In this document: positions 9,561-30,152 of the stretch, one piece after another
How the letters are laid out: each line of letters begins with the position of its first letter
Position numbering within the stretch: position 1 is the stretch's first letter
NCBI GenBank assembly: GCA_030537295.1
Contig: JAUNNU010000004.1
Coordinates: forward strand, 1 to 51,227
Direction: 5' to 3'
Origin: Bacteroidia bacterium
GTDB taxonomy: Bacteria > Bacteroidota > Bacteroidia > Bacteroidales > F082
DNA length: 51,227 bases
Notes under the pieces: generated by a model
Databases searched by the model: none
What the model saw: the letters and a program-made list of their open reading frames with translations, nothing else
Told to the model about the DNA's origin: nothing
Translations under genes and position numbers: made by a program

Positions 9561-9591
9561 TAAAACTCTTTGATAATCAAATAGATATTTG

Positions 9592-9599
9592 TATATTTG
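9592..9599 (+). promoter_or_regulatory. TATATTTG -7 element (transposase)
   Basis: It matches TAnnTTTG and lies 20 bases before the transposase ATG at 9619, inside the left end of the IS. Confidence 0.5.
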
Positions 9600-9618
9600 C
9601 CAAAAATTTGAAGAGAAA

Positions 9619-13659: not shown

Positions 13660-14745
13660 TCACATCAGTTCATAGTTGGTGCTTCTGCCTCCTTCCGCAT
13701 TTTTCTTCAAGACGCCCTTGCAAATCAAATCGTTTATGTCATTCAAGGCGGTGTCGCTTGAACATTTCGCTATTTTCGCCCATTTGCTCGTGTTGAGTTT
13801 TCCAAAGAATCCGTCAAAAAGCATGTTTATCAACTTCTTCTGACGCTCATTGAACCTCATTTCGGAATGTGTCTCCCAAAACTCGGCCTTTCGCAAGACC
13901 GACGATAACGTCTCACTTGTGGCTTTTATCGAATGTTCCAGACAATCCAGAAACCACAACAACCACTCCGTTACGTCGCCTTCACCTTTTTGAACAGATT
14001 CCAACACATTGTAATAACGGTTTTTATCAAGCTGTATCTGATTCGACATACTGTAAAACCGTCTCGGTGTCTCATCGGCCCTCGACAGCAGCATCTCCGT
14101 CAAAGCCCTGGCGATTCTGCCATTCCCATCATCAAACGGGTGAATTGTGACAAACCACAGATGCGCTATCGCCGCCTTCAACACCCGGTCGCAGGTATCG
14201 TCTTCGTTAAACCATTTTATAAACCGTTCCATCTCCATCGGGACTCTTTCAGGCTCAACAGCCTGATAATGAACGGTCTCAAAACCCATCGGACCAGAGA
14301 CGACCTGCATCACATGCGTTCGATACTTGGCCACATCTATCGTATAGAGACCACTCATCCCATTGGGAAACAACACATTATGCCAACCAAAAAGTCTTTC
14401 ATCCGTCAATGGTTTCAAATAATCATGTGTGGCATCGAGCATCATCTCCACCACTCCATCTACATATCTCGATGTCCTGACCATACCTGCCATTGAAATG
14501 CCAAGCCGTTGCGCCACCGACGACCTGACTTGCTCCATATTAAGCATCTCCCCTTCTATCTCTGAAGACTTCACAATCTCTATTGAAATGTTCGTCAACT
14601 GAGCCTCATTCTGCAATGAAAAACCCATCGACGACAACTCGCCAAGCAGACGTCCCTGCATCGCTCTGACCGCCGCCAATCTATTCATTATCTTTGATGT
14701 GTCGAATGTGAAATTCCACCAATTTTCATATTCATGCAAATACAT
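13660..14745 (-). CDS. Fic family protein with N-terminal DUF4172 and C-terminal winged helix
   Basis: The 361-residue protein has an N-terminal DUF4172-like region starting MYLHEYENWWNF. An inhibitory-helix motif SSEIEG (S/TxxxEG) lies at about residues 60-65, and the Fic core HPFDDGNGR has its catalytic His at about 202. The C-terminal segment (RQKKLINML, then AKCSSDTALNDINDL) looks like a winged helix. Fic enzymes transfer AMP from ATP to hydroxyl groups of target proteins. The inhibitory motif on the same chain, N-terminal to the core, makes this a class II enzyme that restrains itself. The start at 14745 is chosen because the -7 element at 14762-14769 overlaps a longer start at 14772. 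Four operator-like half-sites lie upstream. Confidence 0.93.
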   Translation of the reverse strand: MYLHEYENWWNFTFDTSKIMNRLAAVRAMQGRLLGELSSMGFSLQNEAQLTNISIEIVKSSEIEGEMLNMEQVRSSVAQRLGISMAGMVRTSRYVDGVVEMMLDATHDYLKPLTDERLFGWHNVLFPNGMSGLYTIDVAKYRTHVMQVVSGPMGFETVHYQAVEPERVPMEMERFIKWFNEDDTCDRVLKAAIAHLWFVTIHPFDDGNGRIARALTEMLLSRADETPRRFYSMSNQIQLDKNRYYNVLESVQKGEGDVTEWLLWFLDCLEHSIKATSETLSSVLRKAEFWETHSEMRFNERQKKLINMLFDGFFGKLNTSKWAKIAKCSSDTALNDINDLICKGVLKKNAEGGRSTNYELM

Positions 14746-14761
14746 AACTCGATTTTTTTTG

Positions 14762-14769
14762 CAAAAATA
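14762..14769 (-). promoter_or_regulatory. TATTTTTG -7 element (fic)
   Basis: A minus-strand match to TAnnTTTG, 17 bases before the ATG at 14745, so the leader is very short. Confidence 0.6.
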
Positions 14770-14773
14770 CACA

Positions 14774-14855: not shown

Positions 14856-14892
14856 AAAAAAAAGTAGAGCCGTCACAATGTGGCGACTCTAC
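14856..14892 (-). terminator. Terminator of the hydrogenase operon
   Basis: A 14-bp stem with one mismatch and one wobble (GTAGAGCCGTCACA / TGTGGCGACTCTAC, 14864-14892) is followed on the minus strand by eight T residues (14863-14856). It lies just past the hydC stop. Confidence 0.8.
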
Positions 14893-14919
14893 GCGTATTA
14901 ATTAATAAGGTGTACCTTA

Positions 14920-15396
14920 TTATTTGTATTCAGCCAAAATCTCTTTGACTTTGTCAGGTGTCAGACGGCCATAGACCTTGTCGCCGATCATCATGACAGG
15001 TGCGAGACCGCAGGCGCCGACGCAACGGAGGACGTTCAACGAGAAGTTGCCGTCTTCTGTCGTGCCGCCAACCTCGACATTGAGCTGACGTTTCAGTTCA
15101 TCGAGAACCTTTTCAGCACCACGGACATAGCAAGCTGTGCCGAGACATACTGAAATCGGGTTCTTGCCTTTCGGAACCATCGTGAAGAATGAGTAGAACG
15201 ACACGATGCCATACACCCTTGATACCGGGATGTGGAGTTCCTCAGCGATGACCTGCTGGACTTCCGCTGAAAGGTAGCCGTATTCACCCTGTACTTTGTG
15301 AAGCACGTTGATGACTTCACCACCGTCATTACGGAACGATTTGCAAACGTCTTTGATGAAGTTTATCTTTGATTCTGATAATTTAATTGTTGCCAT
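14920..15396 (-). CDS. hydC: Hydrogenase NuoE-like [2Fe-2S] subunit
   Basis: This 158-residue thioredoxin-like ferredoxin subunit matches HydC/HndA of NAD-linked [FeFe]-hydrogenases and NuoE of complex I. The four cluster ligands are visible: C84 and C89 (CLGTAC), C125 and C129 (CVGAC). The N-terminal helical domain contains LHKVQGEYGYLS and VYGIVSFYSFF. It is the last gene of the four-gene operon, 29 bases after hydA, and is followed by a strong terminator. It passes electrons between the diaphorase subunit and the other clusters. Confidence 0.93.
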   Translation of the reverse strand: MATIKLSESKINFIKDVCKSFRNDGGEVINVLHKVQGEYGYLSAEVQQVIAEELHIPVSRVYGIVSFYSFFTMVPKGKNPISVCLGTACYVRGAEKVLDELKRQLNVEVGGTTEDGNFSLNVLRCVGACGLAPVMMIGDKVYGRLTPDKVKEILAEYK

Positions 15397-15425
15397 ATTT
15401 ATATCCTTTCTATTTATTTACAACA

Positions 15426-17213
15426 TTATTCACCACAAGCCTCAACGTGTTGTGATTTGTCAAAGTAATGTGTGTGGAGCTGTTCGTGGCTGAGGTGGCC
15501 GCATGGTTCACCGTAGTATTCCTTGTAGATCGCGATGATGTCAGGGTTCTCGTGTGACTTACGGATCGGTTTGCCGGCATCCTCACGGTATGTAGCTTCC
15601 ATACGTTTGCGGATGATGTCGCTGTTGCCATGGTGGTAAGGCTGACCTGCGCCGCCGATGCAACCGCCTGGGCAAGCCATGACTTCGATGAAGTGGAAAC
15701 CGCGCGGATTGCCGTTGCGAACTTCTTCCATCAACTTACGTGCGTTGGCGAGGCCGTAGCAAACGCCGACGTGTACCGGGAGACCGTTGAAGTCAACGGT
15801 GGCTTCCTTCGTGCCTTCGAGGCCGCGGACGACTTCGAGGTCGATGTTGGCGAGAGGTTTGCCTGTATAGACTTCGTAAGCTGTACGGACAGCTGCTTCC
15901 ATGACACCGCCTGTCGCGCCGAAGATGACTGCAGCACCTGTTGACTGACCGAGCGGGCTGTCGAAGTCGGCCTCTTCGAGGTTGTTGAGGTCGATGTTAT
16001 ACTGTTTGATCATGTGAGCAAGCTCGCGTGTTGTCAATGAGAAATCGACATCAGGATTGCCGTTCACCTTGAACTCGTCGCGTGCGCATTCGCTCTTCTT
16101 TGCCAAGCAAGGCATGATGGAGACGACGACCATGTCTTCTCTCTTCACGCCGATCTTCTGTGCGAAGAAGTTCTTTGCGACAGCGCCGAACATCTGTTGA
16201 GGTGACTTGGCTGTTGACGGGTAGTCGAGCATATCCGGGAAGTTCTTCTCGTAGAAGCTCACCCAGCCCGGGCAGCATGATGTGAACAGCGGCAGAGTTG
16301 CCTTTTCGCCGTTCAGGACTTTCTTCACGCGGCCGAGAAGCTCTGTGCCTTCTTCCATGATGGTGAGGTCAGCGCTCCAGTCGGTATCGAACACGTAGTC
16401 GAAGCCGAGCTGACGGAGAGCGGCTGCCATCTTGCCTGTGACGATTGTGCCTGGTTCCATGCCGAACTCTTCGCCGAGGGCGACGCGGACTGCCGGAGCT
16501 GTCTGCACGACGACGGTCTTGGTCGGGTCGTTGATGGCGTTCATCACGTCGGAGATGTTGTCAACCAATGTCAAGGCGCCGACAGGGCAAACCTGGACGC
16601 ACTGTCCGCAGTTGACGCAGCTTGAATCGCCGAGGTTCATCTCGAATGCAGGGGCGACGACGGCATTGAAGCCGCGGTTGACGGCTGACAAAGCGCCGAC
16701 GCTCTGGATGTTGTTACACATTGTCTCGCAACGGCGGCACATGACGCATTTGTCAACGTCGCGCATGACCGACAAGGTCTGGTCCTTACGGTATGTTGAC
16801 TGTGCACCTTTGAACGGGATGTTGCGGATGCCGAGCTTCTGGGCCAAGGCCTGAAGTTCGCAGTCGCCGCTCTTCTCGCACTGCAAGCAATCGTTCGGGT
16901 GGTCGCTGAGGATAAGCTCGACGACGGTGCGGCGTGCGTTGATGACGCGCGGGCTGTGTGTCAAGACTTCCATGCCCTCGACGCAGTCTGTGGCACATGC
17001 CGGGGCGAGGTTACGACGTGGCTTGCCGTTGAAATCCTTGGTGATTTCGACAACGCAAACACGGCATCCACCTGGTTTGTTCTCAAATTTCATTCCTGCC
17101 AACTCGAAATAGCAGAGGGTAGGAATATGAATACCGGCCTGACGGGCAGCTTTCAAAATTGTTGTGCCTTCTTCGACCTGAATCTTTTTGTTATCTATTG
17201 TTACGTTAATCAT
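15426..17213 (-). CDS. hydA: [FeFe]-hydrogenase catalytic subunit, group A3 type
   Basis: The 595-residue enzyme makes or consumes H2 in the cytoplasm. Domains in order: plant-type [2Fe-2S] (C34, C50, C53, C73); His-Cys3 [4Fe-4S] (H105, C109, C112, C118); two [4Fe-4S] ferredoxin clusters (C156/159/162/166 and C199/202/205/209); and the H-cluster domain with L1 TSCCPGW (C313, C314), L2 MPCLAKKSE (C369) and L3 MACPGGCIGGAGQP (C514, C518). L2 has Leu where Thr is common. With NuoF- and NuoE-like partners it fits the trimeric, possibly electron-bifurcating HydABC, which couples NADH and ferredoxin to H2. No maturation genes (hydE, F, G) are in the window. Bifurcation is inferred from subunit makeup only. 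Confidence 0.96.
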   Translation of the reverse strand: MINVTIDNKKIQVEEGTTILKAARQAGIHIPTLCYFELAGMKFENKPGGCRVCVVEITKDFNGKPRRNLAPACATDCVEGMEVLTHSPRVINARRTVVELILSDHPNDCLQCEKSGDCELQALAQKLGIRNIPFKGAQSTYRKDQTLSVMRDVDKCVMCRRCETMCNNIQSVGALSAVNRGFNAVVAPAFEMNLGDSSCVNCGQCVQVCPVGALTLVDNISDVMNAINDPTKTVVVQTAPAVRVALGEEFGMEPGTIVTGKMAAALRQLGFDYVFDTDWSADLTIMEEGTELLGRVKKVLNGEKATLPLFTSCCPGWVSFYEKNFPDMLDYPSTAKSPQQMFGAVAKNFFAQKIGVKREDMVVVSIMPCLAKKSECARDEFKVNGNPDVDFSLTTRELAHMIKQYNIDLNNLEEADFDSPLGQSTGAAVIFGATGGVMEAAVRTAYEVYTGKPLANIDLEVVRGLEGTKEATVDFNGLPVHVGVCYGLANARKLMEEVRNGNPRGFHFIEVMACPGGCIGGAGQPYHHGNSDIIRKRMEATYREDAGKPIRKSHENPDIIAIYKEYYGEPCGHLSHEQLHTHYFDKSQHVEACGE

Positions 17214-17234
17214 ATTATTATATCCTCCTCTATT

Positions 17235-19049
17235 TTATTTGATAGAAATGGCTTCAAATTTACAACCGCTTATGCAAGCGCCGCACTTGATGCACTTCGT
17301 TGTGTCGATAACCATCGACGGCAACTTGTGACCTTCGGCGATGTAGTTTGTCTTTGAGATTGCTTCCGCCGGGCAGTTCTTCGCGCACTTGCCACAGCCG
17401 ATACATTTATCTTTGTCGATGACGTAGCTCATGAGTTTCTTGCAGACACCGGCGCGGCACTTCTTATCGACGACGTGCTCAACGTATTCATCCCAGAAGT
17501 TGTCGAGTGTTGACAGAACCGGGTTCGGTGATGTCTGGCCGAGACCGCACAAAGCGGTGTCTTTGATGACTGCCGCGAGGTTGCGGAGTTCCTGGAGGTC
17601 GTCCATTGTTCCGTTGCCTTCGGTAATCTTGGTGAGGATTTCGAGCATTCTCTTGTTACCGATACGGCATGGTGAGCATTTGCCGCAGCTCTCTTCGCAT
17701 GTGAATTCGAGGTAGAACTTTGCGATGGCGACCATGCATGATGTGTCGTCCATGACGACCATACCGCCAGAGCCCATCATTGAGCCGGCTGCCATCAAGC
17801 TGTCGTAATCGATAGCTGTGTCGAGGTGTTTCTCTGTCAAGCAGCCGCCTGAAGGACCGCCTGTCTGAACGGCTTTGAACTTACGTCCGCCCTTGATGCC
17901 GCCGCCGATTTCGAAGATGATGTCGCGGAGTGTTGTTCCCATAGGCACTTCGATAAGACCGACGTTGTTGATCTGACCTGCCAATGCGAACACCTTTGTG
18001 CCCTTTGACTTCTCCGAGCCGATTGATGAGAACCATTCGGCGCCCTTTGTGATGATGATCGGGATGTTGGCGAATGTCTCGACGTTATTGACGTTAGACG
18101 GCTTGCCCATGTAACCTGAAACGGCCGGGAATGGTGGTTTCAATGTCGGTTCACCGCGTTTGCCTTCCATTGAGTGGATAAGAGCTGTCTCTTCACCGCA
18201 GACGAATGCGCCGGCGCCGTAGCGGAGCTCGATGTCGAAGTTGAATCCGCTTCCGAGGATGTCATCGCCGAGGAGACCGATTTCGCGGGCCTGTGCGATA
18301 GCGACTTGGAGACGGTGGATCGCCAAAGGATATTCAGCACGGATATAGACGAGACCCTTTGATGCGCCGATGGCGTAGCCGCAGATGGCCATTGCCTCGA
18401 TGATTGAGTTCGGGTCGCCTTCCATGATGGAACGGTCCATGAACGCGCCCGGGTCGCCTTCGTCAGCGTTGCAGATGACGTATTTCTGGTCGGCCTTGTT
18501 CTTCGCGCAGAGACCCCATTTCACGCCTGTCGGGAAGCCCGCGCCGCCACGGCCACGGAGCCCTGACTTGGTGACCAAGTCAATCACATCCTGTGGTGTC
18601 ATCTCTGACAACACCTTTGCGATAGCCTCATAACCACCGCGTGAGATGTATTCCTCAATGTTCTCCGGGTTGATGAAACCGCAGTTACGCAAAGCGATAC
18701 GGAGCTGTTTCTTGTAGAAGCCCATGTGCTTTGAGTCGGAGACATGCTGTTTGTTTTCTGGGTCAAGGTAAAGAAGGTCTGTGACCTTACGTCCTTTGAT
18801 GATGTGTTCGTTGACAATCTTCTCGACATCCTCAGGTTTCACCTGTGTGTAGAATGTGTTGTCAGGAAGCATCTTCACGATAGGTCCCTTTTCGCAGAAG
18901 CCGAAGCAGCCGGTTCTGATGACCTGTACTTCGTCCTGCAAACCTTTTTCCTTCAAGATTCTTTCAAAGTTTGCAATAATCTCATCACTTGCAGATGCCT
19001 TACAGCCGGTACCACCGCAGCAAAGCACGTGCGTTTTGATTTTTGTCAT
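17235..19049 (-). CDS. hydB: Hydrogenase NuoF-like NADH-binding subunit
   Basis: The 604-residue diaphorase subunit (HydB/HndC type) has an N-terminal thioredoxin-like [2Fe-2S] domain (C10/C11, C16, C48, C52). An FMN/NADH-binding NuoF core follows, with GLRGRGGAGFPTGVKW at about 163-178 and YGAGAFVCGEETALI. Next come the SLBB region and the [4Fe-4S] motif ESCGKCSPCRIG. At the C terminus is a 2x[4Fe-4S] ferredoxin domain (CIGCGKCAKNCP, CIKCGACISGCK). It binds NAD(H) and flavin and links them to HydA. The full length and extra ferredoxin domain match bifurcating hydrogenases. It lies 21 bases upstream of hydA. Confidence 0.95.
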   Translation of the reverse strand: MTKIKTHVLCCGGTGCKASASDEIIANFERILKEKGLQDEVQVIRTGCFGFCEKGPIVKMLPDNTFYTQVKPEDVEKIVNEHIIKGRKVTDLLYLDPENKQHVSDSKHMGFYKKQLRIALRNCGFINPENIEEYISRGGYEAIAKVLSEMTPQDVIDLVTKSGLRGRGGAGFPTGVKWGLCAKNKADQKYVICNADEGDPGAFMDRSIMEGDPNSIIEAMAICGYAIGASKGLVYIRAEYPLAIHRLQVAIAQAREIGLLGDDILGSGFNFDIELRYGAGAFVCGEETALIHSMEGKRGEPTLKPPFPAVSGYMGKPSNVNNVETFANIPIIITKGAEWFSSIGSEKSKGTKVFALAGQINNVGLIEVPMGTTLRDIIFEIGGGIKGGRKFKAVQTGGPSGGCLTEKHLDTAIDYDSLMAAGSMMGSGGMVVMDDTSCMVAIAKFYLEFTCEESCGKCSPCRIGNKRMLEILTKITEGNGTMDDLQELRNLAAVIKDTALCGLGQTSPNPVLSTLDNFWDEYVEHVVDKKCRAGVCKKLMSYVIDKDKCIGCGKCAKNCPAEAISKTNYIAEGHKLPSMVIDTTKCIKCGACISGCKFEAISIK

Positions 19050-19077
19050 ATAAAGTCCTCCAAATTAGAATGAATGA

Positions 19078-19467
19078 TTAGATTTTCTCATAATTCACCG
19101 GAATGATACCCTCGACGAGCTCGTTGTTCATGACGTACTTCTCGAGAATCTCATCGGCTTTCTTGTTGTCAACATGACCGAATACGATAGGATCTTTGCC
19201 CGGAACTTTGACTTCGATAGTCGGTTCTGCGTGGCAGTAGCCCATGCAGCCTGTCTGTGTGAAAACAACGCTCAGCTTAAGCTGGTCTGCTTTCTCCATC
19301 ATGTGTTCCATGACCTGTTTTGCGCCGGCGGCGATACCGCAGGTTGCCATAGCAACTTTCACCTGAACCATAGCGTCAGGGTTGTTGCTCTTTTCACGAA
19401 GGTCGAGATTTGACTGTAAATTCTCTCTCATGGCCTTCAGTTCTGCCAATGATTTTATTTTTGCCAT
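19078..19467 (-). CDS. hndB: HndB-like thioredoxin-fold [2Fe-2S] ferredoxin
   Basis: The first gene of the hydrogenase operon encodes a 129-residue protein related to HndB of Desulfovibrio NADP-reducing hydrogenase. The core ATCGIAAGAKQVM (C43) and QTGCMGYCHAEP (C74, C78) give only three visible candidate cysteine ligands; a fourth is not apparent. The N terminus is helical (MAKIKSLAELKAMREN). It likely serves as an accessory electron carrier for the complex. It is 28 bases upstream of hydB and preceded by a good promoter. Confidence 0.88.
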   Translation of the reverse strand: MAKIKSLAELKAMRENLQSNLDLREKSNNPDAMVQVKVAMATCGIAAGAKQVMEHMMEKADQLKLSVVFTQTGCMGYCHAEPTIEVKVPGKDPIVFGHVDNKKADEILEKYVMNNELVEGIIPVNYEKI

Positions 19468-19526
19468 ATTATAAAATATTGTTAATGAATAAATTAAATA
19501 AATTTACTTTTTTTTCAAACATACCG

Positions 19527-19555
19527 CAAATATACAATTCTTTTTTAATAAACAA
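19527..19555 (-). promoter_or_regulatory. Promoter of the hydrogenase operon
   Basis: Minus-strand TTG (19555-19553) and TATATTTG (19534-19527) are 18 bases apart, 60 bases before hndB. No repressor-like inverted repeat is obvious around them. Confidence 0.7.
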
Positions 19556-19593
19556 GAAAAAATTAACGTAAAAATTTTGTACGTATTTATTTC

Positions 19594-19633
19594 AAAAAAA
19601 ACGGAGAAGTGTTGAATGACTTCTCCGTTTTTT
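19594..19633 (-). terminator. Terminator after the nucleotidyltransferase gene
   Basis: ACGGAGAAGT (19601-19610) and ACTTCTCCGT (19619-19628) form a 10-bp stem flanked by A residues on the left and T residues on the right. It can work in both directions and separates the minus-strand queH pair from the hydrogenase promoter. Confidence 0.85.
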
Positions 19634-19642
19634 ACCGGTTCT

Positions 19643-20716
19643 TTAATAATCCTCTTTCTTCTTTATCTTAAAAGCATATCTGAAAAGCGTCCCCAGCAAC
19701 GAATCCGGGAAAGGTTCTTGATACACAATGAAATGCATCTTCTTGTGACGGTAATATTGGTCAATCTTCCGTTGAACCTTCTTGAACTTGTTTTTCGTAG
19801 CCGATGATTGCACCCAAGGATTCATAATATAATACATAACATACTGATAATCATCAGTTTTAATCATATTTTCAACATTCAAGTCGAACCATTTACAACC
19901 AAGAAGATTCTTGCAAATCTCCGAAAGGATGACGACGGCATTTAGAAGCCCCGACTCCTTCCAGATATTTCCAAGATAATTCCAATCAAGCCGCTCGTGA
20001 TTTTCCTTCAGGAAAAGCGTCCAGTCAACAAGATTCCTCATAGGTATCCCCGACCACGGCAAGTGATTGAGCGTATGCATCATCACATATAACGCATTGA
20101 TATTCAAGTTTGCAAAGAAAACATTCGGGATTCGTTCATCGGTAACAGGGTTCTCGTCGAAGTGAGCCATCAGCTCCCTGCTGACAATTTTATTTGCCCT
20201 ATTCAACTCGTAGTTGAACATTCTGTGATTCTCAACGGCAACATCTTTGAAAAAGAAATGAGCATGTTTGGAGTCTTCCTCATCAATTTCAATCCCTTCA
20301 TTTACAATAAGTTGGTTCACTTTGTCATAATCACCGAAACAATAAATGTCAATATCGCCGCATTCGCGGAGTTCGGGATGAGGGTAATACAGAGCGAGAC
20401 CATTGCCTTTCAGCAGCAGCATCTTGATGTCTTTTTCACCCAAAAACTCCGCAAGCTGTTGAGTCACAGCGAGTTGTTTCTCATGTCTTTCTTTTATATG
20501 GTTGACATGGAACGCCCACTCCATTTTGACAGCGAAGGGCATGTTGTTGTCATGTGCGATTATCTCTTCAAAAACGACAGCCGACAGACCTTGTTTTTTA
20601 GAAATATGGAAAATATCAACCCACTGTTTTTCAGCAAGTTGCAATGATTCGACAGTCTTGTCAGTTCCAATTGCCGACCTGATTATTGAAAAAAACACAT
20701 TTTCAAGCTCATTCAT
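19643..20716 (-). CDS. Nucleotidyltransferase-family protein
   Basis: The 357-residue protein carries a nucleotidyltransferase-like core: KDIKMLLLKGNGLALYY followed by RECGDIDIYCFGD, where GDIDIY supplies two metal-binding Asp residues. This matches the uncharacterised NTP_transf_5 family (PF14907), often found near capsule or exopolysaccharide genes. The C-terminal half is helical and unassigned. It starts 8 bases after queH and is followed by a strong terminator, so the two form a pair. Substrate unknown. Confidence 0.75.
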   Translation of the reverse strand: MNELENVFFSIIRSAIGTDKTVESLQLAEKQWVDIFHISKKQGLSAVVFEEIIAHDNNMPFAVKMEWAFHVNHIKERHEKQLAVTQQLAEFLGEKDIKMLLLKGNGLALYYPHPELRECGDIDIYCFGDYDKVNQLIVNEGIEIDEEDSKHAHFFFKDVAVENHRMFNYELNRANKIVSRELMAHFDENPVTDERIPNVFFANLNINALYVMMHTLNHLPWSGIPMRNLVDWTLFLKENHERLDWNYLGNIWKESGLLNAVVILSEICKNLLGCKWFDLNVENMIKTDDYQYVMYYIMNPWVQSSATKNKFKKVQRKIDQYYRHKKMHFIVYQEPFPDSLLGTLFRYAFKIKKKEDY

Positions 20717-20724
20717 GTTGAATA

Positions 20725-21333
20725 TTATTTTTCGTAATTAACACATTCATTTACAATATCTTTTCTCATCGAAAACTCACAGCCGCAGTATTGTTGGTTA
20801 TAAAACCCATATTCCTTTATTATTTGCGACCTGCGTTCCTGAAGTCCGCCTTTTCTCCAGTTTTGCGCCCAGAAAGTGACATCCGGAAACTGTGACATGG
20901 CGAAACTACCAGCTTCTTCAATCTGTTCAAGGCTTTTCCACCGGCTCGATGCCAATGTTGTTGCGATTACTGAAAAACCATTTTCATGAGCATATTTTGC
21001 GGTACGCAACAATCTGTATTTGAAGCATTTAAGACATCTGCCGCCGCGTTCCGGCTCGTTTTCTAGGCCTATCATCTCAACACGCCATTTTTCATGGTCG
21101 TAATCATCGTCAACTATTTGCAAACCAAGCGATTGCGCATAACGTGTACATTCATTCTTTCTGATTTCATATTCCTCAAAAGGGGAAATGTTCGGATTAC
21201 AATAGTATATATAAGGCGTGATGCCGTTTTTCATCATACATTCGATGATTGCCGACGAACATGGGGCGCAACATGTGTGAAGCAACACCTTTGAAGCACC
21301 TCCCGGAACTTTTATTTCAAATTCTTTTTTCAC
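20725..21333 (-). CDS. queH: Epoxyqueuosine reductase QueH
   Basis: This 202-residue member of the DUF208 family catalyses the last step of queuosine tRNA modification, reducing epoxyqueuosine in place of QueG. The cysteine motifs HTCCAPCS, RCLKCFKYR and QQYCGCEFS are visible and would bind the iron-sulfur cluster and metal. I choose a GTG start at 21333 (VKKEFEIKVPGG). No ATG lies between it and the HTCC motif, and the next upstream ATG (21480) would overlap the divergent DRTGG gene and its promoter. A -7 element ends only 5 bases upstream, suggesting a leaderless or near-leaderless message. Confidence 0.9.
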   Translation of the reverse strand: MKKEFEIKVPGGASKVLLHTCCAPCSSAIIECMMKNGITPYIYYCNPNISPFEEYEIRKNECTRYAQSLGLQIVDDDYDHEKWRVEMIGLENEPERGGRCLKCFKYRLLRTAKYAHENGFSVIATTLASSRWKSLEQIEEAGSFAMSQFPDVTFWAQNWRKGGLQERRSQIIKEYGFYNQQYCGCEFSMRKDIVNECVNYEK

Positions 21334-21337
21334 GGCG

Positions 21338-21345
21338 CAAAAATA
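21338..21345 (-). promoter_or_regulatory. TATTTTTG -7 element (queH)
   Basis: It matches TAnnTTTG on the minus strand and ends 5 bases before the GTG, so transcription would begin at or next to the start codon. Confidence 0.55.
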
Positions 21346-21396
21346 ATATTTTTTTCGTATTTCGAGATTGAGAATTTTATTAAAAAAATTTAAAAG

Positions 21397-21428
21397 TTTG
21401 TTAAATCGTAAATAAATTTGTATATTTG
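21397..21428 (+). promoter_or_regulatory. Promoter of the putative hydrogenase regulatory cluster
   Basis: TTTG (21397-21400) and TATATTTG (21421-21428) are 20 bases apart, an ideal Bacteroidota arrangement, about 40 bases before the first DRTGG gene. Confidence 0.8.
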
Positions 21429-21468
21429 CAGCCTTTAAATACGAATTTTTAACCTGAAAAAAAATAAA

Positions 21469-21804
21469 ATGAAAGTACAAGAATTAGTTGACAAATTAGG
21501 GCTTAAAGTCCTTGCAGGCGAAAACGGTCTCGACCGCGAAATAGACGGATGCTATATCTCCGACCTTCTCAGTGACGTGATGGGCAACGCCCAGGAAGGC
21601 AACATCTGGATTACTTTACAGACTCATAAAAACGTGATGGCGGTGGCTTCTCTGAAAGAGATGTCGTGTATCATTCTCGTCAAGGACCTCGGCGCCAACG
21701 AAGACACCATCAACCAGTCTAACGAAGAAGGGCTGCCGATTTTGCAAACGTCAATGCCGACGTTCGAGATCGCAGGATTGGTTTATAATCTGTTAAAAGA
21801 TTAG
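21469..21804 (+). CDS. DRTGG-domain protein 1
   Basis: The 111-residue protein is a stand-alone DRTGG domain, a fold first named from phosphotransacetylase-like and CBS-containing proteins, with presumed ligand-binding or regulatory function. Hallmarks are GLDREIDGCYISDLLSDVM and the later LPILQTSMPTFEIAGLVY. It is the first gene of the plus-strand cluster that ends with the hydrogenase-like iron-sulfur protein. A second stand-alone DRTGG gene lies at 23215. Clusters of this type adjoin [FeFe]-hydrogenase genes in Clostridia. Confidence 0.8.
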   Translation: MKVQELVDKLGLKVLAGENGLDREIDGCYISDLLSDVMGNAQEGNIWITLQTHKNVMAVASLKEMSCIILVKDLGANEDTINQSNEEGLPILQTSMPTFEIAGLVYNLLKD

Positions 21805-21859
21805 GGAGGAAAGTTAAGAGGGAAATCAAGATTCACTTTAGATTTCAAAACTCACGCTG

Positions 21860-22642
21860 ATGGAGACAGAACTGAAGCAATATCGGGCTGACTTGCACAT
21901 TCACACGGTGTTGTCGCCGTGCGGGGATATTTACATGTCGCCGACCGCCATCGTGGAACAGGCGAAGAAGCTGCATCTCGACATGATAGCCATCTGCGAC
22001 CACAACAGCACCCGTCAGGTGAAGGTGGCGCAGCAGATCGGCCGCGAGATGGGCGTGTTCGTAATCGGAGGCGTGGAGATAACCACACAGGAAGAGGCTC
22101 ACGCCTTGGCTTACTTCGAAACCGACGAGCAGCTCGACAAGTTTCAGGAATTCCTCGACGAGCATCTGCCGCACATCCCTTTGGACGAGGAGAAATTCGG
22201 ATACCAGCTCATCGTTGACAAAGACGAGGAGGTTGTCGGTGAAGAGGAATGGCTGCTGTGGTCGGCACTCGACTGCGACCTCGACACGCTTTACGACAAG
22301 GTGCATGAAATCGGCGGGATCTTCGTGCCGGCGCACGTCAACAAGCCGGCGTCAAGCCTGATGTCGCAGCTCGGTTTCATCCCGCCTGACCTCAAAGCCG
22401 ACGCATTGGAGATTTCGAAGCATGTCAAGAAACCCGATTTCCTGAAGAAATTCGCATATCTGAAGAAATTCATGTTCACGAAGAGCAGCGACGCACATTT
22501 CCTGCACATCATCGGAGAGGTGCATTGCGTGTTTCACATGTACGGTCTCACCTTTGACGAGTTCCGCAAGACGCTTCACGGCGAGGACGGAAGATATGTT
22601 GACACAGAACCACAAGAGAAACTACAACTTTTATACGGATGA
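21860..22642 (+). CDS. PHP-domain phosphoesterase
   Basis: The 260-residue protein has the N-terminal PHP signature (ADLHIHTVLSPCGD) with metal-binding His residues, AICDHNST, and later PAHVNKP and SSDAHFLHIIGE. The four PHP motifs are therefore all present and the protein should be an active metal-dependent phosphoesterase, as in the PHP/histidinol-phosphatase-like group. Substrate is unknown. It overlaps the next gene by ATGA (22639-22642), implying coupled translation. Confidence 0.88.
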   Translation: METELKQYRADLHIHTVLSPCGDIYMSPTAIVEQAKKLHLDMIAICDHNSTRQVKVAQQIGREMGVFVIGGVEITTQEEAHALAYFETDEQLDKFQEFLDEHLPHIPLDEEKFGYQLIVDKDEEVVGEEEWLLWSALDCDLDTLYDKVHEIGGIFVPAHVNKPASSLMSQLGFIPPDLKADALEISKHVKKPDFLKKFAYLKKFMFTKSSDAHFLHIIGEVHCVFHMYGLTFDEFRKTLHGEDGRYVDTEPQEKLQLLYG

Positions 22643-23187
22643 AAGAATTAGCATTACATGTATATGATCTGATGGAGAACTCCACCGCAGCCAACTCCAC
22701 GCTTGTCGAGCTGACCATCAAAGACAGCCTGAAAGACAACGTATATGCCTTCACCATCAAGGACAACGGCAAAGGCATGTCGCCGGAGTTCCTCGCCAAA
22801 GTCACCGACCCGTGGACTACTTCGAGGACGACGCGTAAGGTCGGGCTCGGATTGCCGCTCATCAAGATGAACACCGAGAACTGCGGAGGCGGCATGAAGA
22901 TTGAGAGCGAGGTCGGCAAAGGCACCACGCTCAACTTCTGGTTCCAGCACGACAACATCGACCGCCCGCCGATGGGCGACCTCGCCGGCACCCTCGTGAT
23001 GCTTTTCGCCGCACACGAAGACATACACTTCATCTACAGGCACATCACCGACGATGACGAGTTCGTGTTCGACACCGATGAGGTCAAGGAAGCCCTCGAC
23101 GGAATGTCAATGAACGACATCAACATCATGAAATACCTGAAAGAGATGATTCAAGAGAATCTGAAAGAAATTCATTATAACGAATAA
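22639..23187 (+). CDS. GHKL-type ATPase (histidine-kinase-like)
   Basis: The 182-residue protein is a stand-alone ATPase domain. The N-box begins DLMENSTAANSTLVEL, G1 is KDNGKGMSPEF, and G2 is KVGLGLPLIKMN. It lacks a dimerisation/His-phosphorylation domain and any sensor domain, so it is not a complete histidine kinase. The C-terminal 60 residues (DDDEFVFDTDEVKEAL and onward) are extra. In this neighbourhood it probably works as a protein kinase or ATP-dependent switch partner of the RsbW-like protein at 23574. Confidence 0.85.
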   Translation: MKELALHVYDLMENSTAANSTLVELTIKDSLKDNVYAFTIKDNGKGMSPEFLAKVTDPWTTSRTTRKVGLGLPLIKMNTENCGGGMKIESEVGKGTTLNFWFQHDNIDRPPMGDLAGTLVMLFAAHEDIHFIYRHITDDDEFVFDTDEVKEALDGMSMNDINIMKYLKEMIQENLKEIHYNE

Positions 23188-23214
23188 TCACAAACAACAT
23201 CAACATTATACAAA

Positions 23215-23559
23215 ATGAAACTATCTGAAATAGCCAAATTATTGAACGCCAGGGTTGTTTGCGGGCAGGAGCGTCTCAGCGAGGAGCAAGACATAGTGTT
23301 TGCCTCCGACCTCATGTCAGAGGTTCTGACATTGGACGACAACTTCCCGATAATCGTCACCGGACTATGCACCATGCAGACAATCCGCACGTGTGAGATG
23401 GGCAATCTTGACATCGTGGTGTTCGTAAGGAAGAAAAAACCGACTCCGGAAATGATCGAACTCGCGGAAGACAACAACATGGTCCTCTTGGAATGCGACT
23501 ACTCGATGTTCAAAGCGTGCGGCATACTCTGGGAAGCGGGTCTGAAATCTATTTATTAA
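23215..23559 (+). CDS. DRTGG-domain protein 2
   Basis: The 114-residue protein is a second stand-alone DRTGG domain (LNARVVCGQERLSEEQDIVF, then ASDLMSEVL). It ends KACGILWEAGLKSIY. It differs from the first copy in sequence, so this is an old duplication or separate origin. It sits 27 bases after the ATPase gene and 14 bases before the RsbW-like gene. Confidence 0.8.
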   Translation: MKLSEIAKLLNARVVCGQERLSEEQDIVFASDLMSEVLTLDDNFPIIVTGLCTMQTIRTCEMGNLDIVVFVRKKKPTPEMIELAEDNNMVLLECDYSMFKACGILWEAGLKSIY

Positions 23560-23573
23560 CTAAAATTACTGTT

Positions 23574-23987
23574 ATGCATTTAGAATACACAATAATAGAA
23601 GGAGATTTCGTCAATGCAGGTTCGGCTTCAAGCTCGATTAAGAAGACGCTCAAGCAGCTCAGCGTGAGTCCTTCGATAGTGAAACGCGTCGTCGTCGCCC
23701 TCTATGAAGCTGAAGTCAACGCCATCGCCCACGCCTACGGAGGTGTGGTCACCGCCGACATCGACGCCGGTAAGATATTGCTTCGAGTCATCGACAGAGG
23801 TCCCGGCATCCCCGACATCGACTGGGCGATGCAGGAAGGCAACAGCACCGCCTCGCCGGAAGTCCGCGACATGGGCTTCGGCGCCGGCATGGGACTCCCA
23901 AACATCAAGAAGAACGTTGACCGCCTCAACGTACAATCAACCGTCGGCGTCGGCACGACCGTCGAGATGGAAGTGAATTTAGCGTAG
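23574..23987 (+). CDS. RsbW-like anti-sigma/Ser-Thr kinase ATPase
   Basis: The 137-residue protein, starting MHLEYTIIEGDFVNAG, has the compact HATPase fold of anti-sigma regulatory factors: N-box EAEVNAIAHAYGG, DRGPGIPDIDW, and GFGAGMGLPNIKKN. Such proteins are serine kinases that switch partner proteins. No STAS anti-anti-sigma factor, SpoIIE-type phosphatase or sigma gene is in the window. An earlier start at 23493 would run through the preceding DRTGG gene and is rejected. Confidence 0.85.
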   Translation: MHLEYTIIEGDFVNAGSASSSIKKTLKQLSVSPSIVKRVVVALYEAEVNAIAHAYGGVVTADIDAGKILLRVIDRGPGIPDIDWAMQEGNSTASPEVRDMGFGAGMGLPNIKKNVDRLNVQSTVGVGTTVEMEVNLA

Positions 23988-23995
23988 ATTCCTTT

Positions 23996-24035
23996 GATTC
24001 AAAGATTCAAAGATTTAAAGATTTAAAAATTCGAG
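23996..24035. repeat. 8-bp tandem array before the hydrogenase-like gene
   Basis: Five 8-bp units: GATTCAAA twice, GATTTAAA twice, then AATTCGAG. The array ends 3 bases before the ATG at 24039, so slippage would change the distance to the start. Confidence 0.8.
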
Positions 24036-24038
24036 ATT

Positions 24039-25427
24039 ATGGCATTTTATCACGCTCTACAGATAAACGAAAACGTTTGCGAAGGCTGCTCACATTGCAT
24101 CAGGGTGTGCCCTACCGAGGCCATCCGCGTACACGGCGGGAAAGCATATATCGACGAAGCCCGCTGCCTCGACTGCGGCAACTGCTTCATCGCCTGCCCG
24201 CATAAAGCCATCTTCGTCAAACAAGACGACTTCGAGGAGATTTTCAAATACCCGTGCCGCGTGGCTCTCATCCCCGCGGTGTTCCTCGGACAGTTCAAAG
24301 ACGACATCAGCGTTTCACGTATATATGCCATACTCAACGAGATAGGATTCCAACACGTCATCGAAACAGAGATAACGGTGCCCATCTACACTGAAGCGAA
24401 AAACAGATTGGAACGTGCCGACAACACCAAGCCGCTCATCTCGACGTTCTGTCCGGCCATCGTGCGCCTCATACAAATAAAATTCCCAGGATTGGTGGAA
24501 AATCTCATCCCCATCAAGGCACCTCTCGACATCACTGCGATGTATATAAGGAGGAAACTCGAAAAAGACGGCTGGCGGCCGGAAGACATCGGCGTGTTTT
24601 ACGTCACACCGTGCGCCGCGAAAATAGCAGCCGTGAAAAGCCCTGTCGGAGAAGAAAAATCTCCCGTTGACGGCGTCATCAACATGGACTCACTCTACAA
24701 CCGCGTCTATAAGAAAATCAAGGAGCAAGGCCACGACTACAAAGAAGTGAAACTGCCTGTAGCACAACTCAACTCCGACAGCATCCTGACTTCTTTGACA
24801 AACGGCGAGAGACGACTGTCGGTGTCGGAACATTCCCTGTCGATAGACGGCATGGACAACTCCATCGAGTTTCTGGAAAAGGTTGAAAGCGAAGAGATTG
24901 AAGGTGTCGAATTCCTTGAACTGCGCGCCTGCGACCAAAGCTGCCCGGGCGGCATTTTGACATACAACAACAGATTCCTGACTTGTGAGAGGATGTTCGC
25001 AAGGGCGCGTTACGTGGCGGGAAAAGAACGCCGCGGAGAGATGACACGCGCCAAAGAAGTGGAGGAAGAACATGATTATCTGCTTGACAACATCGAGGTC
25101 GGGGAAATAGAGCCGCGCTCCATCAGCCTCGACAAGGACATCTCCAAGGCACTTGAAAAATTAGTCAAAATCAACAGACTGAAGAAAATGCTCCCGCAAG
25201 TTGACTGCGGAATGTGCGGTGCGCCGAGCTGCGACGCATTGGCGGAAGACATCATCTGCAACGGAGCCAAGGCCACAAGATGTGTGTTCATCCAACATCA
25301 TCTTGAAAAACAAAACGCCATGGATCTTGAGGAATCGTTGAAAATCATGGACGACATCTGGGGAGAAGATAAAATAAAGGTTAAACATAGAAAGAAAGAA
25401 GACAACCCATGCGAACATTTGAAATAA
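24039..25427 (+). CDS. Hydrogenase-like iron-sulfur regulatory protein
   Basis: The 462-residue protein starts with two [4Fe-4S] clusters (C14/17/20/24 and C43/46/49/53). An [FeFe]-hydrogenase-like domain follows: L1 region STFCPA (C138), L2 VTPCAAK (C192) and L3 ACDQSCPGG (C298, C302). All four cysteines that would hold the H-cluster are there. The neighbouring Cys of TSCCP, which relays protons, is Phe137, so normal H2 turnover is unlikely. Residues 390-415 add an RnfB-like [4Fe-4S] motif (CGMCGAPSC and C415). This matches sensory or non-catalytic hydrogenase relatives linked to GHKL and DRTGG genes. I infer a redox or H2 sensor. It overlaps the next gene by 19 bases. Confidence 0.88.
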   Translation: MAFYHALQINENVCEGCSHCIRVCPTEAIRVHGGKAYIDEARCLDCGNCFIACPHKAIFVKQDDFEEIFKYPCRVALIPAVFLGQFKDDISVSRIYAILNEIGFQHVIETEITVPIYTEAKNRLERADNTKPLISTFCPAIVRLIQIKFPGLVENLIPIKAPLDITAMYIRRKLEKDGWRPEDIGVFYVTPCAAKIAAVKSPVGEEKSPVDGVINMDSLYNRVYKKIKEQGHDYKEVKLPVAQLNSDSILTSLTNGERRLSVSEHSLSIDGMDNSIEFLEKVESEEIEGVEFLELRACDQSCPGGILTYNNRFLTCERMFARARYVAGKERRGEMTRAKEVEEEHDYLLDNIEVGEIEPRSISLDKDISKALEKLVKINRLKKMLPQVDCGMCGAPSCDALAEDIICNGAKATRCVFIQHHLEKQNAMDLEESLKIMDDIWGEDKIKVKHRKKEDNPCEHLK

Positions 25428-25879
25428 GAAAAGCGCAAGAGAACGAGGCGGGTTTGGTGCTTGAGTTCATCAAGAAACTCGCCGTTTACGAGAAAATGAT
25501 TGACGAGGTCGAAGCTGACGAGGCGACGATTTACGATTCGTTGTTTGTGAAAAAAGACGCCGAAGTCGTGTTCGGCTGCGAAGACGGCGTGCCGGTCGGA
25601 TTCGCCTTGTTCTTCCACAATTTCTCAACATTTGTCGGGAGGAAAGGCCTTTATCTTGAGGACTTATTCGTCATCCCTGAAAAAAGAGGCCTCGGTTACG
25701 GCAAGGCGCTCCTGCTCCACCTCGCGCACCTCGCGAAAGAACGTCACTGCGGCCGCATGGAATGGGTCTGCCTCGACTGGAACACGCCTTCGATAAAATT
25801 CTACAAGTCATTGGGAGCCAAGTCGATGGACGACTGGACAATTTACAGATTTGACGAAAGCACCATTAACAAGTTATAA
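25409..25879 (+). CDS. GNAT-family N-acetyltransferase
   Basis: The 156-residue protein is a single GNAT domain with the acetyl-CoA motif EKRGLGYGKALLLHLA and the C-terminal WNTPSIKFYKSLGAKSMDDW, close to the diamine/spermidine acetyltransferase group. It overlaps the hydrogenase-like gene by 19 bases in another frame, which suggests co-translation but not shared function. Substrate unknown. Confidence 0.88.
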   Translation: MRTFEIRKAQENEAGLVLEFIKKLAVYEKMIDEVEADEATIYDSLFVKKDAEVVFGCEDGVPVGFALFFHNFSTFVGRKGLYLEDLFVIPEKRGLGYGKALLLHLAHLAKERHCGRMEWVCLDWNTPSIKFYKSLGAKSMDDWTIYRFDESTINKL

Positions 25880-27863: not shown

Positions 27864-30152
27864 ATGAGAAACACGACAAAGAAACTACTGATGACACTGC
27901 TGGCCATCGCCATCAGCAACATTGTCTTTGCCGTCAACGACACCATAAAACTTAAAATATCGCCGGCAAAGTCTCCCCTTGGCGCAAATTTCATCACGGT
28001 GAACCAAGGCGAACCGAATATCAGATATATTTCAAAATACATAGCAATCCCGAAAGACGCCGACTTCAACATTTCGTTTCTCATCAAAGGAGAAAAAACA
28101 GCTGACAACACTTACATAGAACCGGCTCGAAAAATCGCGTCAGATTACGATTCAACTGACAATCAACCATTTGAAGATTCGCTGATATATTCAAAAGACG
28201 ATTTTTTCCCTTCAGAAATCATCAAAACCGAAAGAATCTCCATGCGCGACGCAGACCTCCTGCTGATTAGCGTCGCCGGCGAACAATATAATCCGGTGAA
28301 AAAGCAGGCCAAAATTTATGACGAAATAGAGATATGCATTTACGTCAAAGATAAGACCGACAGAGATTTCACCATTGAAAATGACAATCTGACAAAGATG
28401 CTGCAAGGCATCGTTGAGAATCCTGATTTCTTTGACAATGCAGAAACCACCGACCTTTCAGACAGGCGTGACGGATGTAACTATCTGATTGTCATTGCAG
28501 ACGAAGAATACAGGATTTGGGCTGACTCACTGAAGAATTTCCGCGAAGAGCAAGGCATAATAACAAAAATTATAACCATTGACGACATCGGTTACAACTG
28601 GCACGACACACTCAAGAAACGTTTCAAATACATTTGCGAGAACTGGCATCCGGCGCCGGAGGCCATACTCCTGATTGGTGACTACGACTTCGACCATCCG
28701 CGCGACGGAATCAGCACTTTTGTCGGGTTCGACCACCCTGAAGGCTCGGCATACGAGCCATATTTCTCTGACAACATGCTCGTTGATTTCGACGGCGACA
28801 ACATCTCCGACATCGTAATCGCCAGAATGCCCGCTTCCGATGCGGACGAAGCGAGACTGATGATTGAAAAAACCATCAATTACGAGCGACATCCGAGTGA
28901 CAACCCGTCATATTACAGCGGCCCGATAACGGCTATGGGCTACGACCAAAGCAGATGGTTCCAGCTTTGCACCGAGATTGTCGCCGGATACTGGGATTTG
29001 CATGGCAAACAATGCGTCCGCATCAATGCGATACATGAAGGCATCCCCGACTCCATCTGGTCAACGGCACAAAACACCGACTTGGTTTTAAATCAATTTG
29101 GTCCAGAAGGATCAGGGTATATACCGTCCACGATGTCGCATCTCACCGACTGGAGCGGCGACAACACGCAAATCACTGAAGCCGTGGAGACAGGCAGTTT
29201 CATGATTGTGCACCGCGACCACGGCACTTACGAGACATGGGGAGAACCTTATTTTTCAACGGGTTACATCAACGAACTCAACAATGAAGACCTGACATTT
29301 GTGGTTTCAGCGAATTGCCAGACGGGGCATTTCGGCTACGGAGGCGGTTACAGCGACTGTTTCGCCGAACGGTTTTTGAAGACAAGCAACGGAGCCGTGG
29401 CTGCAATTGCGGCTTCCGAACTTTCATATTCATTCGTCAACGACATATACGTCTGGGGACTTTTCGACTATCTTTATCCGGATTTCATGCCAGACTATGG
29501 TTCTCAAAACATTGACTTTCAATATCCTGCGTTTGCAAATCTTTACGGAAAACTGTTTCTGAAAAAATCATCGTTCCCGAACAACAGCAGTTACATTTCA
29601 ATAACAAACCGGCTTTTTCATTATTTCGGCGACGCTTATCTTCAACTCAATTCCGAATTTCCAGAAAATATCAGCATCAATCATCCTGCATCAATTCTGC
29701 CAGGACAAAGTCACATCACCATAGAGGCAGAAGACAACGCATGCATCGCTTTATCCATTGACAGTCAATTGATTGCAAAAGAAAAACCAGAAAATGGCAA
29801 AGTGACATTGCATTTCATGCCTCAATACGAAGGCACAAAAATAAAGGTTGTCGCGACCAAGCAGAATCATTTCAGGCATGAAAGTTTCGTGGCCGTCACC
29901 AACAACATCGGAATTGATGAAAACCATGAAACGTCATTTGAAATTTTCCCAAATCCCAGCAAGGGAAAAATCACAATTAACGGGATAAAAATCGACAACG
30001 TTAAGATTTACAACATTTTAGGCAAAGAGGTCAAATATATTGAATCTTTAGATTCCGAAAAGGTGGAAATTGACGTCAGCGATTTGGATGACGGAATTTA
30101 TCTTGTTTTGGTGAACAATCAGATTTCGAAGAAGATTCAAAAAACAGAATAA
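27864..30152 (+). CDS. C25 (gingipain-like) peptidase with T9SS sorting domain
   Basis: The 762-residue protein has a signal peptide (MRNTTKKLLMTLLAIAISN), a prodomain-like region, and a C25 caspase-fold domain. Likely catalytic residues are His453 in HRDHG and Cys485 in SANCQTG, with DCFAERFLKTSNGAVAAI downstream as in gingipains. The last 80 residues are a type A T9SS sorting domain (FEIFPNPSKGKI to GIYLVLVN). So it should be exported and attached outside by the machinery encoded next door. No promoter is clear between the rpmH terminator and the ATG, so expression may depend on read-through. Confidence 0.88.
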   Translation: MRNTTKKLLMTLLAIAISNIVFAVNDTIKLKISPAKSPLGANFITVNQGEPNIRYISKYIAIPKDADFNISFLIKGEKTADNTYIEPARKIASDYDSTDNQPFEDSLIYSKDDFFPSEIIKTERISMRDADLLLISVAGEQYNPVKKQAKIYDEIEICIYVKDKTDRDFTIENDNLTKMLQGIVENPDFFDNAETTDLSDRRDGCNYLIVIADEEYRIWADSLKNFREEQGIITKIITIDDIGYNWHDTLKKRFKYICENWHPAPEAILLIGDYDFDHPRDGISTFVGFDHPEGSAYEPYFSDNMLVDFDGDNISDIVIARMPASDADEARLMIEKTINYERHPSDNPSYYSGPITAMGYDQSRWFQLCTEIVAGYWDLHGKQCVRINAIHEGIPDSIWSTAQNTDLVLNQFGPEGSGYIPSTMSHLTDWSGDNTQITEAVETGSFMIVHRDHGTYETWGEPYFSTGYINELNNEDLTFVVSANCQTGHFGYGGGYSDCFAERFLKTSNGAVAAIAASELSYSFVNDIYVWGLFDYLYPDFMPDYGSQNIDFQYPAFANLYGKLFLKKSSFPNNSSYISITNRLFHYFGDAYLQLNSEFPENISINHPASILPGQSHITIEAEDNACIALSIDSQLIAKEKPENGKVTLHFMPQYEGTKIKVVATKQNHFRHESFVAVTNNIGIDENHETSFEIFPNPSKGKITINGIKIDNVKIYNILGKEVKYIESLDSEKVEIDVSDLDDGIYLVLVNNQISKKIQKTE

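Follow-up and report, generated by a model that had tools for sequence, protein, structure and literature searches.

A six-gene cassette, DRTGG1-PHP-GHKL1-DRTGG2-GHKL2-HydL, was found beside an [FeFe]-hydrogenase operon in a 51,227-nucleotide stretch of DNA (referred to as the window; contig JAUNNU010000004.1 of the Bacteroidia bacterium assembly GCA_030537295.1, order Bacteroidales). We propose, with a probability of approximately 50%, that the six genes form a conserved redox-sensing control cassette for NADH:ferredoxin enzymes, the client of which at this locus would be the HndABCD/HydABC-type hydrogenase. The cassette occupied positions 21469-25427 on the plus strand, with gene spacings of -4 to 55 bp, and the operon, hndB-hndC-hydA-hndA, occupied 14920-19467 on the minus strand with four intact genes; the 2.0 kb between them contained NTP_transf_5 and QueH genes, both on the minus strand. 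All ten genes were intact, and their positions, distance and opposite strands were about as described in an earlier reading of the letters of the window (the sequence-only reading). With four subunits, a HydA above the cut-off of its family, and the standard motifs TSCCPGW, MPCLAKK, and MACPGGC intact, the operon encodes an NADH-dependent [FeFe]-hydrogenase of the HndABCD/HydABC type.

The link between the cassette and the hydrogenase is real. Among 198 genomes of the order, HydL (the hydrogenase homologue of the cassette; threshold of 1e-40) was present in 58, strong HydA (threshold of 1e-100) in 126, and HydG in 116; HydA had been found in 146 genomes at 1e-40, and the 20 that were weaker than 1e-100 were left out. 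HydA accompanied HydL in 57 of the 58 HydL genomes vs 69 of the 140 without HydL (both, 57; HydL only, 1; HydA only, 69; neither, 71; Fisher p 5.8e-13), a p value that is an indication only, because the genomes are related and not independent. Co-occurrence with hydABC, on which the sequence-only reading had let its case depend, was therefore found, as was the conserved neighbourhood: in many relatives the cassette lay directly upstream of hndB-hndC-hydA-hndA. The usual arrangement in the Bacteroidales, all on one strand, was DRTGG2-GHKL2-HydL-DRTGG1-PHP-GHKL1-HndB-HndC-HydA-HndA, and the two triads were swapped in the window, likewise in the relatives L052 and L134. In a non-random selection of 35 of the 58 HydL loci of the order, the client in view was an [FeFe] operon in 25 and a formate-dehydrogenase-type (Fdh-type) operon in 2, with neither in 8.

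A pattern scan that covered 84,980 species, each represented by one genome, gave at least 512 confirmed relatives, the best 80 of which were combined with the 35 loci of the order into a set of 115 (113 distinct; L073 and L110, and L074 and L111, were the same contigs). L071 and L072 (from a phylum draw; L072 was the same contig as L091) were left out of this set, and HydL-like matches of 400 bits or less with our own hidden Markov model (L088-L090, proteins of 594-678 aa, perhaps PAS-type) were dropped. Twelve named phyla were represented: Bacteroidota, Bacillota, Ignavibacteriota, Chlorobiota, Sumerlaeota, Cloacimonadota, Aminicenantota, Acidobacteriota, Latescibacterota, Zixiibacteriota, Myxococcota, and Nitrospirota. 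The order DRTGG2-GHKL2-HydL-DRTGG1-PHP-GHKL1 on one strand was found at 65 of the 115 loci, 50 of these 65 having client genes directly after GHKL1, and the DRTGG2-GHKL2-HydL triad was found at 105. Median spacing in the relatives was 1-9 bp inside the cassette, and HndB followed GHKL1 at a median of 45 bp. A second hydrogenase operon also lay upstream of the cassette at 10 or more of the 115 loci; at L055-L057, L059-L061, L079, L086, and others of the order, the cassette was flanked on the same strand by two different hydrogenase operons, one on each side, which gives the impression that it serves both.

Several of the genes were also fused. DRTGG2 and GHKL2 were joined in 11 open reading frames (ORFs) of relatives (9 distinct), HydL and a DRTGG domain in one (L122), and PHP and GHKL1 in one (L114), and one of each fusion type was checked by Pfam; these fusions suggest a physical partnership of the fused pairs. 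The parts of split cassettes persist. Each of 18 split-locus genomes, chosen for HydL without the second triad or without a hydrogenase nearby, had one and only one cassette-type PHP (18/18), which was inside the HydL locus in 4 (G298, G200, G278, and G302, where it had already been seen) and elsewhere in 14. DRTGG-PHP-GHKL1 was directly upstream of HndB/HndC-type operons at L213, L215, and L216, with HydA in view in two of the three, and DRTGG-GHKL2-DRTGG-PHP-GHKL1 was directly upstream of RnfC, RnfD, two RnfE/A-type, and RnfB matches at L214, L219, and L220 (a Clostridiaceae metagenome-assembled genome (MAG), an Alkaliphilus MAG, and Anaerovirgula). Gene content, order, neighbours, fusions, and conserved residues are the part of the proposal that is read directly from the sequences.

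The clients at the 115 loci were [FeFe] HydABC (42), Fdh-type (13), Rnf (11), and HdrA-type (8) enzymes, and no complete client was found at 41, 6 of which showed a client fragment. A [NiFe] large subunit was present at 6 of the 8 HdrA-type loci, and RnfC directly followed the cassette at 9 of the 11 Rnf loci; at L132 and L133, HydL lies apart from the cassette and the Rnf label comes from an RnfD-like match alone. Pfam confirmed RnfC (PF13375) and RnfD (PF03116), as well as one [NiFe] large subunit and, for a single Fdh-type subunit, its molybdopterin domains. The NuoF-type domain PF01512 is common to HndC and RnfC. Its density in 60 genomes of the order (0.895 per Mb) corresponds to approximately 1.4% per 16 kb by chance, and the share of loci with a NuoF/RnfC-like gene within 8 kb of HydL was 27/35 in the order, 49/80 in the others, and 30/45 among the genome_contigs loci that extended 5 kb or more to each side. 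A chance neighbourhood of two operons was ruled out by this excess over expectation. On a HydL tree of 74 rows, made by a quick method with a random subset of the HydL rows from the order and with client-less rows excluded from the changes, client type changed at least 6 times, the least possible being 3. Because complete or partial cassettes are also found next to Fdh-type, HdrA/[NiFe]-type, and Rnf operons, with a NuoF/RnfC-like NADH subunit common to all of the client types, an interpretation confined to hydrogenase is too narrow, and the switch "for the hydrogenase" of the sequence-only reading has to be widened. A bolder and more tentative possibility, which we would not yet favour, is a cross-phylum control device for NADH:ferredoxin enzymes, in which a repurposed hydrogenase-domain Fe-S sensor, two GHKL-DRTGG relays, and PHP would plug into their clients through the NuoF/RnfC-like subunit; it would take in lineages with a HydL lacking the [2Fe] site, and bifurcating hydrogenase, formate-dehydrogenase-type, HdrA/[NiFe], and Rnf clients alike.

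By sequence, HydL is M2e-like, and more than hydrogenase-like. The features of the M2e (group D) class are two N-terminal [4Fe-4S] motifs, an H-domain carrying the four cluster cysteines, a C-terminal CX2CX4CX16C, no PAS domain, loss of Cys299, and replacement of Met353 by Ser or Thr (in the part of PMC8163306 consulted). In the window, HydL had two N-terminal [4Fe-4S] motifs with eight cysteines and Fer4 matches, no PAS domain match in a Pfam scan, Phe for Cys299 (F137), and Thr for Met353 (T190); Cys299, Met353, Lys358, and the CpI positions follow the numbering of PMC8163306 and were matched by motif. Across 118 rows (the 115 loci, the window, L071, and L072) and every client type, the H-domain cysteines C138, C192, C298, and C302 and the C-terminal CX2CX4CX16C (C390, C393, C398, and C415) were kept in 118/118, and position 190 was Ser or Thr in 118/118. 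Cys17 of the first [4Fe-4S] motif was lost at 7/7 HdrA-type and 8/11 Fdh-type loci with a residue there, which suggests that the cluster is altered and that the alteration goes with the type of client; the residue found at these loci was Asp, His, or Arg. The sequence-only reading correctly saw a hydrogenase homologue and missed both these class features and the gene that overlaps its 3' end (see below). The class of HydL is already known, and what appears to be new is its six-gene company as a defined cassette.

Maturases were surveyed in 50 genomes (the 49 with HydL loci from the best 80, and the window genome), and HydG, HydF, and group A HydA were above the cut-off in 24, 21, and 32, respectively. 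No hydA, hydF, or hydG match was above the cut-off in 14 of the 49 HydL genomes (G440 was scored as having HydA from two adjacent partial matches, and G420, among the 14, had a weaker hydrogenase-like match of 132 bits), including members of Cloacimonadota, Sumerlaeota, Chlorobiota, Aminicenantes, Latescibacterota, Zixiibacteriota, Acidobacteriota, and Bacillota, and HydG or HydF was found in 0/8 genomes of the HdrA-type group. Single absences mean little, because the records are mostly MAGs for which no completeness is stated; the overall pattern and the eight HdrA-type genomes weigh more. Since HydL with its H-domain cysteines occurs in genomes lacking hydA, hydF, and hydG above the cut-off, H2 sensing appears unlikely as its general role, and the H2 sensing of the sequence-only reading is not supported as worded.

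An H2-specific sensor, in which HydL with an H-cluster would detect H2 and set hydrogenase expression or activity, along the lines proposed by the authors of the TamHydS study and by the sequence-only reading, is in our estimate somewhat improbable. TamHydS, the only M2e enzyme studied, binds the H-cluster, has a raised affinity for H2, and is encoded upstream of a bifurcating hydrogenase (PMC8163306, seen in part). Such a sensor also agrees with the M2e features of HydL, with the presence of HydA and HydG (48 of 58) in the HydL genomes of the order, and with G198, which has HydL and HydG and no group A HydA match at 1e-40. On the other hand, it does not account for the 14 genomes above or for the Fdh-type and Rnf clients, which are not hydrogenases, and Lys358 was replaced in 12 of the 49 genomes, although this was unlinked to maturase loss. 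The genomic evidence for an H-cluster in HydL appears mixed. Two candidate markers were rejected: loss of Lys358 as a sign of a lost [2Fe] site (HydG or HydF in 7/12 non-Lys vs 17/37 Lys genomes), and Ser for the second Cys of TSCCP in HydA as a sign of maturase loss, which was also found in A. woodii 7q4v and in L188, a HydG genome. Five Ignavibacteria (L176, L178, L179, L180, and L187), one of them a complete chromosome, had group A HydA and no HydG or HydF above the cut-off, and their HydA motifs resemble those of the A. woodii enzyme. The window genome (G000, rated 96% complete) also had no HydG and no HydF above the cut-off despite an intact HydA; its congener G298 has HydG, and the absence is probably an assembly gap, yet both are missing.

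The remaining five proteins were compared with profiles and solved structures. PF07085 (DRTGG) had two matches genome-wide, both in the cassette. DRTGG1 was 33-64% identical to the DRTGG1-type and 19-31% to the DRTGG2-type proteins of the relatives, so that by identity the two are distinct lines; in the PDB, the DRTGG profile gave weak matches, including the regulatory region of the C. perfringens pyrophosphatase and HPr kinase, and designed Pizza proteins matched equally well or better. H13, H15, D47, H48, E73, H81, H159, D211, and H213 of PHP were invariant (43/43 rows), and these nine His/Asp/Glu positions, which we take to be of the kind that serve as PHP metal ligands, are as would be expected for an active enzyme. 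GHKL1 was nearest to the ATPase domains of histidine kinases and had no phospho-acceptor domain; its C-terminal region had no Pfam family match at E 0.1, and D108 and G113, which follow the GHKL domain, were invariant (35/35 rows). SpoIIAB ranked first among the structures matched by the GHKL2 profile (1til and 1l0o), and E45 and N49 of the N-box were invariant (17/17); GHKL2 is homologous to SpoIIAB and not a member of the equivalog TIGR01925 (56 bits, below the cut-off of 135).

This likeness to SpoIIAB, in structure and below the cut-off of the profile, agrees with a transcriptional system having an unlinked DNA-binding output (a sigma or other factor) and GHKL2 acting as an anti-sigma-like protein, as does the gene for an AraC-type regulator that flanks TamHydS (PMC8163306, seen in part). 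We nevertheless consider such a system very unlikely: STAS, PP2C, sigma, and DNA-binding genes are all missing from the cassette, and the DRTGG2-GHKL2 fusions suggest a dedicated DRTGG partner. The absence of a SpoIIE-type phosphatase, STAS protein, and sigma factor pointed out by the sequence-only reading was borne out among the 18 Pfam-scanned genes of the window (no STAS, sigma factor, or PP2C).

Alternatively, HydL could be an H-domain [4Fe-4S] scaffold, for which the eukaryotic Nar1/NARFL proteins offer a comparison, with the GHKL ATPases and PHP helping to insert Fe-S clusters or FMN into NADH:ferredoxin enzymes. An assembly or repair factor of this kind would suit the multi-cluster nature of the clients, the operon-like layout, the lack of a regulator gene in the cassette, and the H-domain cysteines retained without [2Fe] maturases above the cut-off. 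It is unlikely, however, given the 69 genomes of the order with hydA and no HydL match, the nearest relative of GHKL2 (SpoIIAB, a kinase and anti-sigma protein), and the occurrence of DRTGG in regulated enzymes.

In the redox-sensing control cassette that we favour, HydL would be the input, its [4Fe-4S] chain reporting how reduced the ferredoxin/NADH pool is or, in a HydL fitted with an H-cluster, reporting H2. A first relay would consist of HydL, DRTGG2, and the SpoIIAB/RsbW-like GHKL2, and a second of GHKL1, DRTGG1, and the PHP phosphoesterase. The GHKL proteins would bind and use ATP, with the DRTGG proteins as their partners or substrates; PHP would reverse the signal, so that the GHKL/DRTGG pairs and PHP would set and reset a modification or bound state. 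The target of the output may be the NuoF/RnfC-like NADH:FMN subunit that the clients share, or its expression, which would make HndC/HydB the control point in the window. We infer the signalling, its direction, phosphorylation, and the target from these comparisons.

Several points weigh against this proposal. The 69 genomes with hydA and no HydL match indicate that HydL is dispensable. No NuoF/RnfC-like gene was within 8 kb at 39 of the 115 loci, in some cases from contig ends; no client was in view at 8 of the 14 split cassettes, and four of these eight had no GHKL1 there; and in the genus of the window itself, HydL of G298 has drifted approximately 28 kb from hydA. No DNA-binding protein or phospho-acceptor was conserved among the labelled families or the 25 commonest neighbours. 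DRTGG domains also occur in metabolic enzymes, some GHKL proteins resemble chaperones or MutL, and co-operonic genes could serve assembly, not control. As for the maturases, the Ignavibacteria HydA without HydG or HydF means that absence of these families is not strict proof of absence of the H-cluster, HydG was missed about as often in the HydA genomes of the order (18/126) as in the HydL genomes (10/58), and G198, unless it encodes a group B enzyme, favours an H-cluster in the HydL of the order.

Compared with the layout of SpoIIAB/RsbW partner-switching modules, the cassette shares the homology of GHKL2, its N-box, and an adjacent gene for a small partner, whereas it has DRTGG for STAS, PHP for PP2C, and no sigma factor; unlike two-component systems, it had no HisKA or receiver domain match in Pfam. 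The M2e/group D hydrogenases described in PMC8163306 and PMC13104023 have the same domain plan as HydL (CX2CX4CX16C, no Cys299, Ser/Thr for Met353, and no PAS) and are likewise encoded close to a bifurcating hydrogenase and to a histidine-kinase-like ATPase; DRTGG is named in neither paper, the text covered mentions no non-hydrogenase client, and HydL differs in occurring also in genomes without H-cluster maturases above the cut-off. Group C (M2f) HydS is similarly a hydrogenase-like sensor beside a functional hydrogenase and signalling proteins, but has PAS and a serine phosphatase (phosphatase-like HfsC in Thermoanaerobacterium) where the cassette has GHKL, DRTGG, and PHP (PMC11837493, in the part seen). 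A PP2C/SpoIIE-like gene shared the locus with the cassette in L054, L069, L083, L143, and L151 (Bacteroidales-type), possibly a group C-type sensory system adjoining the cassette. The Bfu family of bifurcating enzymes lists HydABC and formate-dehydrogenase-type kinds, similar to the clients of the cassette, and hisK is drawn in one Bfu operon and described as no part of the holoenzyme; the main text of that paper, as far as consulted, contains no DRTGG or PHP (PMC9304861). The HdrA/[NiFe] kind presumably also belongs to this family. No description of the six-gene cassette was found in the open-licence literature searched. There, DRTGG and hydrogenase are mentioned together in a single paper, a D. 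vulgaris fitness study, in the part seen of which the DRTGG gene belongs to the lactate region, and a figure legend lists spoIIAB, rsxB, and hndB in a Sporomusa region with HydABC or Stn (PMC12003927), possibly this same cassette, passed over without comment.

The features of the locus are summarized in Table 1. The promoter-like site has the form that we take to be the Bacteroidetes promoter consensus, and its position ahead of DRTGG1 fits a promoter; the form and placement of the "ideal promoter" of the sequence-only reading hold, and the site is supportive only, because the TTTG-N20-TATATTTG pattern occurred 6 times in the window vs 1.86 expected. Overall, that reading was partly supported. 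The GNAT gene is probably co-transcribed with HydL; it was absent from the 25 commonest neighbour families of the relative loci and was not counted as a conserved member of the cassette. Elsewhere in the window, a Fic/DOC-family protein with DUF4172 (13660-14772) is encoded just downstream of the hydrogenase operon, a peptidase C25 (gingipain-family) protein with a Por secretion tail at 27864-30152, and an ORF with a DUF772 transposase domain at 9569-10290, the start of which is overlapped by a TTTG-N19-TATATTTG site.

Table 1. Features of the hydrogenase operon and the six-gene cassette (positions in the window).
Feature	Position	Strand	Basis
HndA/HydC, NuoE-type subunit	14920-15396	-	PF01257, 175 bits
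HydA/HndD, catalytic [FeFe]-hydrogenase	15426-17213	-	NF040763, 878 bits (cut-off 765)
HndC/HydB (BfuB-like), NuoF-type FMN/NADH subunit	17235-19049	-	PF01512, 160 bits
HndB-like thioredoxin-like [2Fe-2S] protein	19078-19467	-	PF01257, 25.0 bits (cut-off 24.8)
Bacteroidetes-type promoter-like site, TTTG-N20-TATATTTG	21397-21428	+	40 bp 5' of the DRTGG1 ATG
DRTGG1, stand-alone DRTGG domain protein, 111 aa	21469-21804	+	PF07085, 29.7 bits (cut-off 25.2)
PHP-family phosphoesterase, 260 aa	21860-22642	+	PF02811
GHKL1, ATPase domain and C-terminal region, 182 aa	22639-23187	+	PF02518, 53 bits
DRTGG2, stand-alone DRTGG domain protein, 114 aa	23215-23559	+	PF07085, 26.7 bits (cut-off 25.2)
GHKL2, SpoIIAB/RsbW-like GHKL protein, ~137 aa	~23574-23987	+	PF13581, 50 bits
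HydL, M2e/group D-type [FeFe]-hydrogenase homologue, 462 aa	24039-25427	+	PF02906, 98 bits; Fer4; PF04060
GNAT acetyltransferase	25409-25879	+	PF00583; overlaps the HydL 3' end by 19 bp

The relay of the signal from group D sensory hydrogenases was left open by the authors of the TamHydS study (PMC8163306, in the part seen), and the cassette supplies five candidate partners for it, the fusions pointing to the pairs to examine first. The question also becomes wider than H2 and takes in the redox control of the enzymes on which the fermentation products and energy yield of anaerobes depend. If HydL does work without the [2Fe] site in some lineages, the hydrogenase fold would have become a bacterial redox switch.

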